Below are positions 27,027 to 31,889 of a stretch of DNA of 38,199 nt, piece by piece. A program made the translations under genes and the position numbers. Each line of letters begins with the position of its first letter. Positions within the stretch are counted from its first letter, which is position 1. Source of the stretch: Desulfuromonas sp. TF (GTDB lineage: Bacteria; Desulfobacterota; Desulfuromonadia; Desulfuromonadales; ATBO01); assembly GCF_000472285.1 (NCBI RefSeq), contig NZ_KI421422.1:105667-143865 (forward strand), in the 5' to 3' direction. Below the pieces are notes generated by a model. That model searched no databases and was not told where the DNA came from. It worked only from the letters and a program-made list of their open reading frames with translations.

Positions 27027-28601
27027 TTATTTCCGCGGCGGTTGGGGCTTCAGGGGAAGGGAGAAGGTCACCCGGGTTCCGATGCCCTGTTCACTGAAGA
27101 CCAGGATCTCTCCGCCGTGGGCCTCGACAATCTGGCGGACGATGGACATGCCGAGACCCAGTCCGGAGAAACCGGTATTGGAAGCATCGACCCGGTAGAA
27201 TTTGTCGAAGATATGATCCAGTTCGTCGGGAGACATTCCGGCTCCTTCATCTTCGACGCCTACGGTGCAGAAAAGAGGGCCTTTTCGGGCGAAGACGCGA
27301 ATGGTCGTTCCGCGGGGGGAAAATTTGATGGCATTGCTGAGAAGATTCTGCATGAGTTGAGTGATTCTCGTCCGATCGAATTCCAGATTAAGGGGGTATT
27401 CGGGTAGATCCAGGACAACCTGGGTATCGGTCACCTTCTCCCGGCAGCCTTGCACGATTTCATGGAGAAGCAGGCCCAGGTCGTCTCGATGGCGATCCAG
27501 GGTGATAGGTTTCCCCGACTGGACCCGACTCAGATCGAGGAGATCGTCTACGATCCGGCCCAGCTCTTCCGCCTTCTGATAGATGATATCCAGGAATTCC
27601 TGCTGCTGCGCCGGCGAGGAGCCGTTGTACAGATCGGGCTGGCGGAGTAGTTCGGAATAGCCCATCAGCGAGGTCAGGGGAGTGCGCAGCTCGTGGGCTG
27701 CGGTGGAGATGAATTCATCCTTCATCCGGTCCAGCGCTTTTTCTTGTGAAATGTCGTGAAGGATGGTGATGGCGCCGGTCCGCCGGTTCTCCTGACCGAT
27801 AACGGAAGTGGTTTTGGCCCGGATGATGCGCGGCACCTTCTGTGAAGGCCCGGACATTTCAAACTCGGTGATCAGGGGGCGGTCCTCACCGGAAAGTACG
27901 TCCCGGATCTGACTTTGCAATTCTTCCTGGTGGACAGTCTCTTCGAAAGGTCCTGAGCAGGCGTCAGCGGCTGAGCGCTCGAGGAAGCTCTCGGCGCTCA
28001 GGTTCATGAGTGAGATACTTCCATCGAGGCCGACCACCAGCAGTCCGTCGGAGACCGAGCGGAGAATCGCGTCTATCTTCGCCCGCGAAGTCTCTGTTTC
28101 CGCCAGGGCCCGACAGAGTTCCCTTTCCGCCTCCTTGCGCTCGGTAATGTCGTGGGCCACGCAGACCACGTAGCGGTCATCCCGAAAATGGACGAGAGTC
28201 AGCGTGAGGTCGATCACGCCGCCTTCTTCATCGGAGGAGACCCGGGATTCGAGTCGCAGAGGTTGGCCGGCCTGCAGGACGGGATCGCGAGTCCAGGCTT
28301 CGATGGCTTCGGCCGAGTGTGGGTCGATCGTCTCGGGCAGACACTTTTCCGCCTGCCGGCTGGCCGAAACGTCAAAAAGACGGCAGGCGCTGGGATTGGT
28401 GTCCAGAAACCGAAGGGATGGAAAACTCAACAGGCAGATGGCGTTGTCGGCCCTGTGGAGGAGCTCCCGGTACCGCTCAAGGGCATCCACCTGGCGGCGA
28501 AAGGCGGGGTAGTAGGATTTGCGGATTGAGCGCTCCCCCATTCCCAGGATCATGGCACGCAGATCCGCCTGCTGCCGGTCGCGATCAGAGGGACTCTTCA
28601 T
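27027..28601 (-). CDS. PAS-domain sensor histidine kinase, ErcS-like partner of the adjacent ErcA-like protein
   Basis: From ATG 28601 (GAGG six bases upstream) the protein has 524 residues and no membrane segment, so it should be cytoplasmic. It contains two PAS domains (about 45-155 and 172-285), then a HisKA domain with phospho-acceptor His303 in AAHELRTPLTSL. The ATPase domain has the N box NLLSNAIKFSP (419-429), G1 DEGAGM and G2 GLGLGMSIV. The start overlaps the end of the iron-ADH-like gene by 17 nt, which indicates coupling. In-frame codons further upstream lie inside that gene and are rejected. No response regulator is next to it. Confidence 0.9.
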   Translation of the reverse strand: MKSPSDRDRQQADLRAMILGMGERSIRKSYYPAFRRQVDALERYRELLHRADNAICLLSFPSLRFLDTNPSACRLFDVSASRQAEKCLPETIDPHSAEAIEAWTRDPVLQAGQPLRLESRVSSDEEGGVIDLTLTLVHFRDDRYVVCVAHDITERKEAERELCRALAETETSRAKIDAILRSVSDGLLVVGLDGSISLMNLSAESFLERSAADACSGPFEETVHQEELQSQIRDVLSGEDRPLITEFEMSGPSQKVPRIIRAKTTSVIGQENRRTGAITILHDISQEKALDRMKDEFISTAAHELRTPLTSLMGYSELLRQPDLYNGSSPAQQQEFLDIIYQKAEELGRIVDDLLDLSRVQSGKPITLDRHRDDLGLLLHEIVQGCREKVTDTQVVLDLPEYPLNLEFDRTRITQLMQNLLSNAIKFSPRGTTIRVFARKGPLFCTVGVEDEGAGMSPDELDHIFDKFYRVDASNTGFSGLGLGMSIVRQIVEAHGGEILVFSEQGIGTRVTFSLPLKPQPPRK

Positions 28602-29751
28602 AGAGAACCTCGAGGTCGCGACGGTTGATGGCACGGGGGTTGGTGGCAAGGCAGGGGTCCCGCTCGGCCGACTCCGCAAGCTCGCGGACATCGGTCCGAT
28701 GAACTCCCAAGTCGTGAAGGGTCTGGTGAATGCCCACTGCCCGCCGCAGTCTTTCGATCTCAGCCAGAATGGATGCGGCCATCTCCCGGCGGCTCCGTTG
28801 ACGGGTCTCAATACCCATGGCCTTAAGAATGAGGGAAAACTGGTCATCGGCAGCGGGCATGTTGAACTCCATCACCTGGCGAAGAAGAATGGCATTGCAT
28901 TCGCCGTGGGGGAGGTCGAGATACCCGCCAAGGCTGTGCGCCATGGCGTGGACCGCTCCCAAGCTGGCGTTGGAGAAGGCCAGGCCGGCTTCCAGGCAGC
29001 CGAGCATCATCTGCGCGCGGGCATCCAGATCCCCGGGAAAGGCGACGACCCTCTCAATGTGGCCGCAGATCAGTTCGACCGCCTTGAGGGCATGCAGGTC
29101 GGTAATCGGCGAGTGCGCATTTGAAACGGCGGCTTCGATGGCGTGAGTCAGCGCGTCCATTCCGGTGCAGGCGGTGAGAAAGGGATCCATCGTGGTGGTC
29201 ATCTCGGGATCGATCAGAGAGAGATCGGGGACGATGGCCTTTGAGATGATGGCGATTTTGCAGCGGCGGGCCTGATCGGTGATGATGGCGAACTGCGACA
29301 GGTCGGCGGCGGTGCCGGCAGTAGTGGGTATGCAAAGCAGGGGCGGTCCGGGTTCGGAAATCATGTCCACCCCTTCGTAGTCCAGAATGGAGCCTCCGTT
29401 GGCCGTGACGACGGCGATCCCCTTGGCGCAGTCGATGGGGCTGCCTCCTCCTACCGCCACGATGGTGTCGCAGTCGGCCTGGAGATAAATTTCGACTCCC
29501 CGAGTCACTTCCAGGGCCTTGGGATTGGGCGTCAACCCACTGAAAAGTACGGTCTCCAGCCCTTCTTCTTCCAGGGAGTTTCGAACCTGGCTGGTCCAGC
29601 CAGCAGCGATGACGCCGGGGTCTGAGACAAGCAGCACCCGGCTTGAACCGAGATTCCGGGCATACCGCCCGGCCTGGTATCGCGCCCCAATGCCGAAAAG
29701 AAATTCCGGCGCCAGAAACTTGCGCAGTTCGGGAGCATTCTGCTTGCCCAT
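28585..29751 (-). CDS. ercA: Iron-containing alcohol dehydrogenase homologue, ErcA-like regulatory type
   Basis: This 388-residue group III (iron) ADH fold protein has NAD-binding GGGSPIDCAKG (101-111) and all four metal ligands: Asp199 and His203 (GMDALTHAIE), His272 (AHSLGG), His282 (LPHGECNA). It departs from catalytic family members at the usual TTAGTGSE motif, reading TTAGTAADLSQFAIITD. That change, the length, and the downstream overlapping PAS histidine kinase match ErcA, an ADH-like protein that acts with the ErcS kinase in Pseudomonas alcohol-oxidation control. A regulatory role is therefore more likely than a metabolic one, though activity cannot be excluded. Confidence 0.75.
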   Translation of the reverse strand: MGKQNAPELRKFLAPEFLFGIGARYQAGRYARNLGSSRVLLVSDPGVIAAGWTSQVRNSLEEEGLETVLFSGLTPNPKALEVTRGVEIYLQADCDTIVAVGGGSPIDCAKGIAVVTANGGSILDYEGVDMISEPGPPLLCIPTTAGTAADLSQFAIITDQARRCKIAIISKAIVPDLSLIDPEMTTTMDPFLTACTGMDALTHAIEAAVSNAHSPITDLHALKAVELICGHIERVVAFPGDLDARAQMMLGCLEAGLAFSNASLGAVHAMAHSLGGYLDLPHGECNAILLRQVMEFNMPAADDQFSLILKAMGIETRQRSRREMAASILAEIERLRRAVGIHQTLHDLGVHRTDVRELAESAERDPCLATNPRAINRRDLEVLYEESL

Positions 29752-29835: not shown

Positions 29836-30630
29836 TCAGGAGCGAAGCTTGTATCCTTTGCCGATCAGCAGGGCGGCCCAGATGAAGAGTCCGGAGGCCA
29901 TGCCGGCGCTGATGCCGAAGGCGGTCCACAGGGAGGTGTCTCCGACTCCCAGCAGGGCATGGCGGAAACCGTCGATGAGATAGAAAAGGGGATTGAACCG
30001 GGAGAGGCTTCTCCAGGGCTCCGGAAGAATGGAGATGGGATAGAAAACTCCACCCAGAAAGATAAGGGGAAGGATCACGAAATTGTTGTACATCGAAAGG
30101 GCGTCGAAGCTGTCCGAGTAGATGGCGGCAATGATGCCGAACTGGGCGAAGAGAAAGCTGGAGAGGCATGCCATGGCCATGCCGAGAAATGGGGAGGGCC
30201 AGGGCAGAGCGGCGAAAAAGAGGGATATCAGCCAGACCACCAGCCCCACCAGCAGACCGCGAATCATGGCCGCCAGAGTGTAGGCGAGGATGAATTGCGG
30301 AGGGGTTATGGGTGTGACCAGCAGGTCGACGATATTTCCCAGATAGCGGGACATGAAAAGGGAGGAGGAGGAGTTGGCAAAGGCGTTGTTGATGACTCCC
30401 ATGAGGATCAGTCCGGGAATGACGAACTGGGCATAGCTGAAGCCCTCCACAACGCTGAGCCTGTCGCCCAGGGTGGCGCCGAAAACGAATAGATAAAGGG
30501 ATGCGGTGATGATCGGGGTGATGACTGTCTGCACCGACACCCGCATAAAGCGAAGGATCTCCCGCTGCACCAGGGTGACGAATGGAAGCCAGGAGACGAA
30601 GGGGACCTGTTTCGGGTTCAGCTCGCTCAT
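29836..30630 (-). CDS. ABC-2 type transporter permease, YadH-like
   Basis: The protein has 264 residues from ATG 30630 with AAGGAG upstream; the ATG overlaps the ATPase stop by one base (TGATG). It shows about six membrane segments and the YadH pattern: REILRFMRVSVQTVITPIIT, GFSYAQFVIPGLILMGVINNAF, and late FLGGVFYPISILPEPWR. It ends KGYKLRS. It would form the membrane part of an exporter with the preceding ATPase. The substrate is unknown; YadGH itself is uncharacterised. Confidence 0.88.
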   Translation of the reverse strand: MSELNPKQVPFVSWLPFVTLVQREILRFMRVSVQTVITPIITASLYLFVFGATLGDRLSVVEGFSYAQFVIPGLILMGVINNAFANSSSSLFMSRYLGNIVDLLVTPITPPQFILAYTLAAMIRGLLVGLVVWLISLFFAALPWPSPFLGMAMACLSSFLFAQFGIIAAIYSDSFDALSMYNNFVILPLIFLGGVFYPISILPEPWRSLSRFNPLFYLIDGFRHALLGVGDTSLWTAFGISAGMASGLFIWAALLIGKGYKLRS

Positions 30631-31562
30631 CACGGCTCCTTGCGGCCGTTCGGCCGCAGGCCGGTCAGCTCGAGAAAGACTTCCTCCAGCCCCGCCTGCT
30701 CGGTGGAAAGCTCAGTCACCTTCAGACCAAGACGGCAAAGGATCGTGAGCAGCTCGCCGTCGCGCTGCTGTTGCGTAGGCGCGAGAAACAGAGTCCGTCC
30801 CCCCCCTTCCAGCTTCGCTGAAAAAGGAGCGAGTTCATCGGGGACGCGGTCGAGGGGCTCGGCAAGATGCACCGTCGTATGCCTTCGTCCGAGGCGGGTG
30901 AGCAGCTCCTCCTTCCCTTCCAGGGCCACCAGCTCGCCGTGGTTCATGATGCCGATTCGGCCGCACATCTGTTCGGCCTCCTCCAGGTAATGGGTGGTGA
31001 GCAGCACGGTCGTTCCCTCCCGGTTCATCTCCTGAACGAATTCCCAGAGGCTGTGGCGCAGTTCGACATCGACCCCGGCGGTCGGTTCATCGAGGATGAG
31101 GAGGCGCGGCTTGTGGATCAGCGCCTTGGCGACCATGAAGCGGCGCTTGAGGCCGCCGGAGAGCTTGTTCATCGACTTGAGCAGATGGGGCTCCAGACCG
31201 AGCCGTTCGATGAGCAGCCGTCTCCAGGCAGGGTCGTCGGGCACCCCGTAGTAACCGGAGTGGATCTGAAGGGAACGCTCGATGGTGAAGAAATGGTCGA
31301 TGACAAGCTCTTGGTGCATGACCCCGATCAGCCGGCGCGTCTGGCGGTACTCGCGCTGGTTGTCATGGCCGAAGACAGCCACTTCTCCTCCGCCGATGCG
31401 GGTGACGCCGGCAACCATGTTGATGATTGTGCTCTTGCCAGCTCCGTTGGGGCCGAGAAGACCGAAGATCTCCCCCTGCGCAATGTCGAAGGAGATCCCC
31501 TTGACCGCCTCGGTGCCGTCGTAGCTTTTGCTGAGATTTCGTATACTAAGGGCGGGAATCAT
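30630..31562 (-). CDS. ABC transporter ATP-binding protein, YadG-like
   Basis: From ATG 31562 the protein has 310 residues: MIPALSIRNLSKSYDGTEAV, Walker A GPNGAGKST (37-45), and Q-loop VMHQELVIDHFF. The signature is KLSGGLKRR, Walker B is LLILDEPTAGVD, and the switch His lies in TTHYLEEAEQ. A C-terminal extension of about 90 residues is typical of drug- or polysaccharide-type ABC-2 ATPases. It is coupled to the permease gene. Codons upstream of 31562 in the same frame do not extend the conserved fold and overlap the promoter, so I reject them. Confidence 0.92.
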   Translation of the reverse strand: MIPALSIRNLSKSYDGTEAVKGISFDIAQGEIFGLLGPNGAGKSTIINMVAGVTRIGGGEVAVFGHDNQREYRQTRRLIGVMHQELVIDHFFTIERSLQIHSGYYGVPDDPAWRRLLIERLGLEPHLLKSMNKLSGGLKRRFMVAKALIHKPRLLILDEPTAGVDVELRHSLWEFVQEMNREGTTVLLTTHYLEEAEQMCGRIGIMNHGELVALEGKEELLTRLGRRHTTVHLAEPLDRVPDELAPFSAKLEGGGRTLFLAPTQQQRDGELLTILCRLGLKVTELSTEQAGLEEVFLELTGLRPNGRKEP

Positions 31563-31569
31563 GACCGGC

Positions 31570-31598
31570 ACTATACTCCGAAAAGCCCATATCTTCAA
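31570..31598 (-). promoter_or_regulatory. Promoter giving a possible leaderless mRNA for the ABC ATPase
   Basis: On the minus strand, -35 TTGAAG (31598-31593), a 17-bp spacer and -10 TATAGT (31575-31570) form a good sigma-70 promoter. The ATG begins exactly eight bases after the -10, where transcription would normally start. No Shine-Dalgarno sequence fits at a usual distance. Confidence 0.6.
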
Positions 31599-31889
31599 GG
31601 GTCGGAAGCGGAGGACGAGGAATAAGGACGGACCGCGCAAGGGAATGTCAGGGTTTCCATTGCATTTGTCCGCAGCCACTGAGGATGAAACAAAATTCGC
31701 TTGCAAGGCGAGATCGGGTCCACGAAAAGCATTAATCCACGAAGGACACGAAGGAATTTGCTATTACAATCCTGCGGATGATATACACAGAGGTGGAAAC
31801 GTTATTTTTTTGAGGCTCTTGGATTTTCTTCGTGTTGCTTCGTGCTCTTCGCGGACAATGATATTCAGGTTGAAAATAGGAGGAATAAA
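31599..31889. other. Divergent spacer before the cobalamin adenosyltransferase gene
   Basis: Together with the preceding promoter this is a 327-bp gap without a recognisable gene. It holds an imperfect inverted repeat (31737-31854, listed separately). A possible plus-strand promoter is TTGCTA (31758-31763), 18-bp spacer, TATACA (31782-31787). A clear AGGAGG lies at 31879-31884. No B12-box or cobalamin riboswitch core was seen despite the downstream gene. Confidence 0.4.
31737..31854. repeat. Imperfect inverted repeat with CACGAAG arms
   Basis: CCACGAAGGACACGAAGGAA (31737-31756) is nearly complementary to TTTTCTTCGTGTTGCTTCGT (31824-31843), the second arm continuing with a further CTTCGCGG. 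About 67 bp lie between the arms. Arms built from short CACGAAG units resemble dispersed intergenic palindromes in this and other groups. It could fold in the leader of the adenosyltransferase mRNA. Confidence 0.6.

Follow-up and report, generated by a model that had tools for sequence, protein, structure and literature searches.

What is the gene of an iron-dependent alcohol dehydrogenase (ADH)-like protein doing when it runs into the gene of a soluble histidine kinase? The question is raised by a 38,199-nucleotide (nt) stretch of Desulfuromonas sp. TF (order Desulfuromonadales; contig NZ_KI421422.1, positions 105,667 to 143,865; hereafter the window), whose minus strand encodes an ADH-like protein of 388 amino acids at 28585..29751 and a kinase of 524 amino acids at 27027..28601. 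An earlier note, made from the DNA letters alone, had taken the two for a sensory pair like ErcA and ErcS of Pseudomonas. We think it likely that the two proteins form a sensor complex of the ErcA type, in which ErcA docks on a short conserved tag at the front of the kinase and thereby switches its partner.

The identification of the ADH-like protein as ErcA is supported by its open reading frame (ORF), a family model, Pfam, trees, an alignment and an AlphaFold model. Against NF041833, the NCBIfam equivalog model for ErcA, the protein scores 599 bits where the cut-off is 550, and its next-best family, lactaldehyde reductase, gives 349 bits against a cut-off of 523; Pfam matches the Fe-ADH domains PF00465 and PF25137. 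The genome of this strain (4.40 Mb in 17 contigs) has five Fe-ADH matches, of which only the window protein lies above the ErcA cut-off. That cut-off is exceeded in 16 of 58 genomes of the same order, with a gap in the scores between 579 and 494 bits, and in 0 of 14 control genomes. Two trees were built, both of a quick type with midpoint rooting and support only from the Shimodaira-Hasegawa-like approximate likelihood ratio test (SH-aLRT). The first covers 147 Fe-ADHs and unites 59 ErcA rows in a single clade (SH-aLRT 100), in which the window protein adjoins two genomes of its own order and is joined by a Pseudomonas row (L085). The second includes catalytic ADHs and was thinned by identity from 160 to 73 rows, leaving out L058, L059 and L179, all of which are in the first tree, where L179 and EutG came together on long branches. 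Its ErcA clade holds 33 rows (SH-aLRT 99), whereas a separate clade of 19 rows (SH-aLRT 99) holds DhaT, E. coli YiaY and two more of this genome's ADHs, and FucO and EutG likewise fall outside. The earlier note had proposed this comparison with ErcA and the catalytic group III ADHs, taking a place among 1,3-propanediol or ethanol dehydrogenases as the outcome that would speak against it; in both trees the window protein instead clusters with ErcA and apart from these enzymes. The note had also made something of a pair outside Pseudomonas. The pair is indeed present here, but this is no surprise in itself, as NCBIfam already has a named family and many groups carry the pair: the 80 named loci most like the window protein (the best 80 of 579, many from metagenome-assembled genomes, MAGs) include Pseudomonas, Oceanospirillum, Marinobacter, Vreelandella, Azoarcus, Geomonas, Anaeromyxobacter, Holophagaceae, Lentisphaerota, a Chloroflexota MAG and a Methanoregulaceae MAG, and binning errors may account for single odd taxa among them (Methanoregulaceae L108, Syntrophomonadaceae L126).

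The active site has been kept. The four metal ligands read in the earlier note are all present (D199, H203, H268 and H282 in window numbering, with roles assigned as in E. coli FucO), and they are invariant in 16/16 ErcA proteins of the order and, in a larger alignment, across all 60 rows of ErcA, which also keep the GGGS loop for nicotinamide adenine dinucleotide (NAD). The AlphaFold model of the window protein has a mean predicted local distance difference test score (pLDDT) of 91.5 and a template modelling (TM) score of 0.96 to methanol dehydrogenase 8zrl. Because ligands and loop are retained and the model matches this enzyme, ErcA has probably kept the ability to bind metal and NAD. Both ligands and loop are common to the catalytic group III ADHs, and the fold is shared with DhaT, FucO, Zymomonas ADH2 and Bacillus methanolicus methanol dehydrogenase (TM 0.92-0.96, best chain each); ErcA differs from them in its separate clade and in clade-wide K11, E16, F19, W52, P142, S152 and Q153, where most catalytic rows have other residues. 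The N-terminus of ErcA carries a clade-specific KFxxPExxFG. The changed loop noticed earlier is altered as described (TTAGTAADLSQF), but it is not peculiar to the window protein: it is a feature of the whole ErcA clade, in which most of the 60 rows read T-T-[A/G]-G-[T/S]-[S/A]-A-D-[V/I]-S-Q-F.

The partner gene has a longest ORF of 27027-28847, and comparison with the family favours the ATG at 28601 as its start. From there the ORF and Pfam give the tag, two PAS matches, HisKA and HATPase_c, with no receiver domain. No transmembrane-like stretch is present (best 19-residue Kyte-Doolittle mean 1.26), in keeping with a cytoplasmic kinase. Since the ADH gene ends at 28585, the two overlap by 17 nt (28585..28601, minus strand), as had been noted; one frame encodes the end of ErcA (YEESL-stop) and another the beginning of the kinase (MKSPSD). 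We compared this arrangement across 80 named and 16 same-order ErcA loci, the window included (96 rows, 94 distinct, 93 with over 400 nt of sequence past the ErcA gene). Counted from the ADH stop, an in-frame start codon (ATG, GTG or TTG) lies exactly at -17 in 77 of the 93, and in 39 of the 53 usable loci that remain when the ADHs are clustered at 80% identity, which is more than chance would give. Among 52 rows with the -17 start (ADHs clustered at 90%), ErcA ends in YEEAL-stop in 23 and in YEESL-stop in 8, and the partner begins with MKKHSD, MKKPSD or a close variant, so that the overlap is coded twice. Judged from these sequences, the ErcA gene and that of its partner are an old unit. In the loci where no tagged partner adjoins ErcA (L036/L064, L039/L065 and L050), the usual ATG triplet at -17 is TTG, ACG and ACG, respectively.

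The kinase tag (residues 18-51; 28449..28550, minus strand; ILGMGERSIRKSYYP...) was delimited by alignment and profile and is a candidate ErcA-docking segment. A loose pattern, LIGLGExSxRKSYYPEL, which was broadened after the first-pass misses were known, finds it in the downstream frame of 90 of the 93 ErcA loci and of 50 of the 53 left after clustering at 80% identity. Whole genomes were searched with a profile (A2) of 34 positions and 38 rows; among these are the window, six further rows from the order and the majority of a 26-genome set, all of which match by construction. Strong matches (E <1e-13, 17 copies) occur in 15 of 16 ErcA-positive and 0 of 42 ErcA-negative genomes of the order (Fisher p 5e-13, kinship ignored). 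Three further matches in the order, including one from a genome without ErcA, are weak (E 0.002-0.006) and look like chance. In a phylum sample of 247 genomes, the tag is found in 9/9 with ErcA above the cut-off and in 1/238 without (p 1e-15), bearing in mind that the order and phylum samples share a few genomes, that of the window included, and that some A2 rows come from the searched genomes. In the lone ErcA-negative genome with a tag, the upstream ErcA is without about 200 internal residues; this remnant (L276 4787-5296) still precedes the tagged gene and may reflect an assembly fault. A tag search of 185 genomes of the Pseudomonas class returned two, each with ErcA upstream, and 26 chosen genomes of named ErcA loci, mostly A2 rows, are all tagged, 25 with a single copy and one (G082) with a second copy that is also beside an ErcA. 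Two genomes of the order (L182, L184) have an ErcA with no tagged neighbour and a tagged kinase elsewhere, which argues that the partner can act in trans. The A2 scores of the window kinase (59.8 bits) and of the L085 genome (61.7 bits) express likeness rather than independent detection, both being A2 rows. Within an alignment of the first 165 partner residues, positions 25-32 are the best conserved block (0.84). When residues 1-165 of the window partner are folded alone, the PAS domain is well folded, the tag centre (19-31) is not helical, and residues 21-30 form the block of lowest pLDDT (52); low pLDDT together with high conservation could fit a segment that becomes ordered on binding.

What follows the tag varies. 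We chose 24 tagged proteins for Pfam, partly for their unusual look, so that the domain mix is not a frequency: five are HisKA kinases with no receiver (one cut by a contig end), nine combine HATPase and receiver, two have HATPase only, one is an HWE kinase, three carry a SpoIIE phosphatase (L041, L044, L109), two GGDEF-EAL and two GGDEF-HD (GGDEF with EAL or HD: L074, L129, L126, L256). The domain next to the tag is usually PAS, but it is GAF in L037, and there is no PAS at E 1e-5 in L085, L091, L108 and L256; PAS was accordingly rejected as the common input. The tag is the sole constant part of ErcA partners, with interchangeable domains behind it.

ErcA has cousins with a similar arrangement. 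Two more ADH families of the order directly precede kinases, type 2 (C11:59494-60624 in this genome) and type 3 (C9:9207-10349). Among 102 Fe-ADH ORFs, drawn from the window and 65 fetched regions and thus a subset of all same-order matches, a kinase is the next gene in 10/10 of type 2, 20/20 of type 3 and 9/16 of ErcA by a strict test that misses the window pair because of its long ORF reading (some other ErcA partners are not kinases), and in 0/56 Fe-ADHs outside the kinase-linked families. After the kinase comes a regulator with receiver and sigma-54-activator domains, matched by Pfam in a type 2 locus (L054) and in the type 3 locus of this genome (L052), and by pattern in its type 2 locus. 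A structural ADH near type 2 has an upstream -24/-12 site with one mismatch in 7/7 loci scanned, and the ADH near type 3 has one with two mismatches in both loci scanned, in a scan that had no shuffled control and that gave other sites with one mismatch or fewer elsewhere in these loci. Actinobacteria have a fourth family. Its Tsukamurella gene (L254) has methanol dehydrogenase/MoxR/VWA genes on one side and a kinase plus regulator on the other, and in Mycolicibacterium chubuense NBB4 (L255) a kinase comes after it, with monooxygenase genes nearby; LTGLRSGKSSYYPQYR and LTGVRSGKGTFYPQFR occur at the starts of the two kinases. A single member of each of types 2, 3 and 4 was scored with NF041833, giving 414, 485 and 462 bits, respectively, below the ErcA cut-off. 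In the 73-row tree, 49 ADHs of ErcA and types 2-4 form one clade (SH-aLRT 99), which includes two Rhodococcus rows with no listed kinase gene. The tag profile of ErcA partners, run against 3532 ORFs, reaches E 10 in 31 of 32 type 2-4 kinases. Another 19 listed rows do so as well, three of them representing type 2 or 4 kinases in a longer or truncated reading. Taken singly, the E-values (0.02 to 8.5) are weak, and the type labels come partly from motif patterns, the ADH adjacency test being independent of them. The tags of type 2-4 kinases are likely akin to that of ErcA partners, in a weaker form. The Rhodococcus plasmid relatives L259 and L265, in which the four metal ligands are replaced (E, N, Q, Y) and a regulator gene is present with no kinase gene listed, are likely metal-free.

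We propose that ErcA descended from an NAD-dependent iron ADH and retained its metal and NAD sites. It would bind, and perhaps turn over, an alcohol or aldehyde together with metal and NAD(H), and it would dock directly on the short tag of the soluble kinase; its ligand or redox state could then alter the kinase via the helix and PAS domain after the tag, and a complex held by the tag might let ErcA set the activity of whichever output follows. The relationship to Pseudomonas is close. ErcA-ErcS (P. aeruginosa PA1991-PA1992) and YiaY-PP_2683 (P. putida) have an ADH of the same family (P. protegens L085 scores 608 bits, the window protein 599), and the Pseudomonas loci share adjacency, the -17 start and the tag with the window. 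The coupling stressed in the earlier note is therefore real, as an overlap, but not special, since the two genes also adjoin in Pseudomonas (PP_2682/PP_2683) according to sections of PMC12997753. The Pseudomonas partner that we tested (L085) differs in being a hybrid kinase with a receiver. Excerpts of PMC12997753 also report that the ped cluster is repressed when yiaY or PP_2683 is inactivated and that AlphaFold3 predicts contact between the N-terminal domains of YiaY and PP_2683, and part of PMC10308882, citing another paper, has yiaY deletion lowering target gene expression. By analogy, this literature fits the mechanism proposed here. NosP-NahK, a nitric oxide-sensing protein and a soluble hybrid kinase as outlined in PMC12997753, is alike in that a separate soluble sensor acts on a cytosolic kinase encoded alongside, but its sensor protein differs from ErcA. 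FIST/NosP was considered as a second tag partner and rejected: extra tag copies were sought in the 26 ErcA genomes, and the sole one (in G082) is beside an ErcA. Four Pseudomonas/Stutzerimonas genomes (G058-G061) each have a single tag copy at E 0.001, with the presence of NahK there unchecked.

Could ErcA be a metabolic trigger enzyme instead? It would then be a working ADH that docks on nothing, the PAS domain would sense its product (aldehyde or NADH), and the tag would serve, for example, dimerisation. Unbroken conservation of the metal ligands and NAD loop would suit such an enzyme, as would a passage of PMC10308882 in which YiaY is assumed to be an NAD-dependent methanol dehydrogenase that may sense methanol by oxidation. 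It is however the tag that is constant and not PAS, which four of the tagged proteins do not have, and a role in dimerisation leaves the near-absence of the tag from genomes without ErcA unexplained, so that we consider this account unlikely. A plainer version, in which an ordinary ADH shares an operon with the kinase that regulates it and has no sensory role, draws on a fold and active site like those of catalytic group III ADHs. We hold it to be very improbable, given a clade separate from those enzymes, the absence of kinase neighbours among the 56 Fe-ADHs examined outside the clade, the joint presence of tag and ErcA in genomes where the two are not linked (L182, L184), and Pseudomonas genetics, which in portions of PMC12997753 has a member of the ErcA family needed for the control of other genes. 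The link between tag and ErcA might also reflect shared operon descent, with no contact between the proteins, since an overlap kept in 77/93 loci moves the gene pair as a unit. But the tag is well conserved past the overlap while neighbouring stretches drift, it is kept with swapped outputs and in two unlinked kinases, and its weaker form recurs in the cousin families with other spacings; descent of this kind strikes us as quite doubtful.

Several results nevertheless weigh against the docking complex that we prefer, beginning with the broadened pattern and the matches by construction described above. One ErcA-positive genome of the order (G010) has no A2 tag match, and ErcA is followed by a sigma-54 activator at +120 in L036/L064, a CHASE2 Ser/Thr kinase at +205 in L039/L065 and a receiver-like ORF at +52 in L050. 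Ordinary enzyme activity of ErcA is possible, as the active-site residues are kept, and yiaY overexpression raised methanol consumption according to part of PMC10308882, which does not suit a purely sensory role. Finally, the target of the Pseudomonas system, the pyrroloquinoline quinone (PQQ)-dependent ADH (TIGR03075), has no match in this genome at E 0.001.

Taking ErcA and its cousins together, we lean towards a wider view of the docking complex. An iron-ADH lineage may have become the sensing half of a portable two-protein sensor of alcohol or aldehyde (or of NAD redox state), its tag placed before outputs as unrelated as phosphorelay, cyclic di-GMP synthesis and breakdown, and a SpoIIE-type phosphatase, across bacteria and perhaps in an archaeon, in at least four families: ErcA, two of the same order with NtrC-type regulators and one of Actinobacteria, the last three with members below the sole NCBIfam model. 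The wider pattern of tag and ErcA looks new: a literature search, with subscription papers and preprints outside its coverage, found among the titles and opening lines of abstracts listed no paper on the tag or on ErcA-kinase pairs outside Pseudomonas, and a passage of a 2026 ped review (PMC12997753) calls the communication from ErcA to ErcS unresolved. A short constant tag, almost confined to genomes with ErcA, is a precise site to cut, swap or mutate. If our view is right, alcohol sensors could be built by placing the tag before different outputs, much as nature appears to have done, and many genomes contain iron ADHs that are annotated as enzymes and would have to be reinterpreted as sensors.

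What the pair might control in this organism is the next question. As the earlier note had it, no response-regulator-like gene lies beside the pair (ORF translations of 24-32.5 kb, judged by eye). Its suggestion of a genome search for an ErcR-like orphan regulator turned up six LuxR-type (GerE) proteins, three with a Pfam receiver, of which L272 has its own HisKA_3 kinase gene alongside. L267 and L270 are possible orphans with no evident kinase neighbour, as far as neighbours that were not Pfam-scanned allow, and nothing ties either to the window kinase. PQQ-ADH was rejected as the local target, having no match here, and a regulon other than quinoprotein alcohol oxidation is possible in this organism. 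A sigma-54 promoter at the pair was rejected as well, with no site of one mismatch or fewer anywhere in the window. The upstream ABC transporter genes (29836-31706) were discarded as part of the system, as a look-alike pair (by eye) occurs in G033 (L196), which has no ErcA over the cut-off; they are probably mere neighbours.

Elsewhere in this genome, the type 2 ADH/kinase pair (L051 8920-12652; G000:C11, about 56.9-60.7 kb) is accompanied by an NtrC-like regulator and lies near a structural Fe-ADH (L051 6976-8181) with a sigma-54-like site upstream, followed by MoxR-like and VWA-like genes (named by eye). The type 3 pair (L052 9204-13812; G000:C9) joins an ADH and a GAF-kinase to a receiver/sigma-54-activator gene beside a YiaY-like ADH and a gene that resembles aldehyde ferredoxin oxidoreductase. 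A plasmid search gave no record above 60% identity, the best being Acetoanaerobium (48%), where the tag is present. No Rfam family is found in the window at gathering scores, and its positions 102-21638 are an origin-type region with gyrB, dnaA, yidC, mnmE, mnmG and ATP synthase genes.

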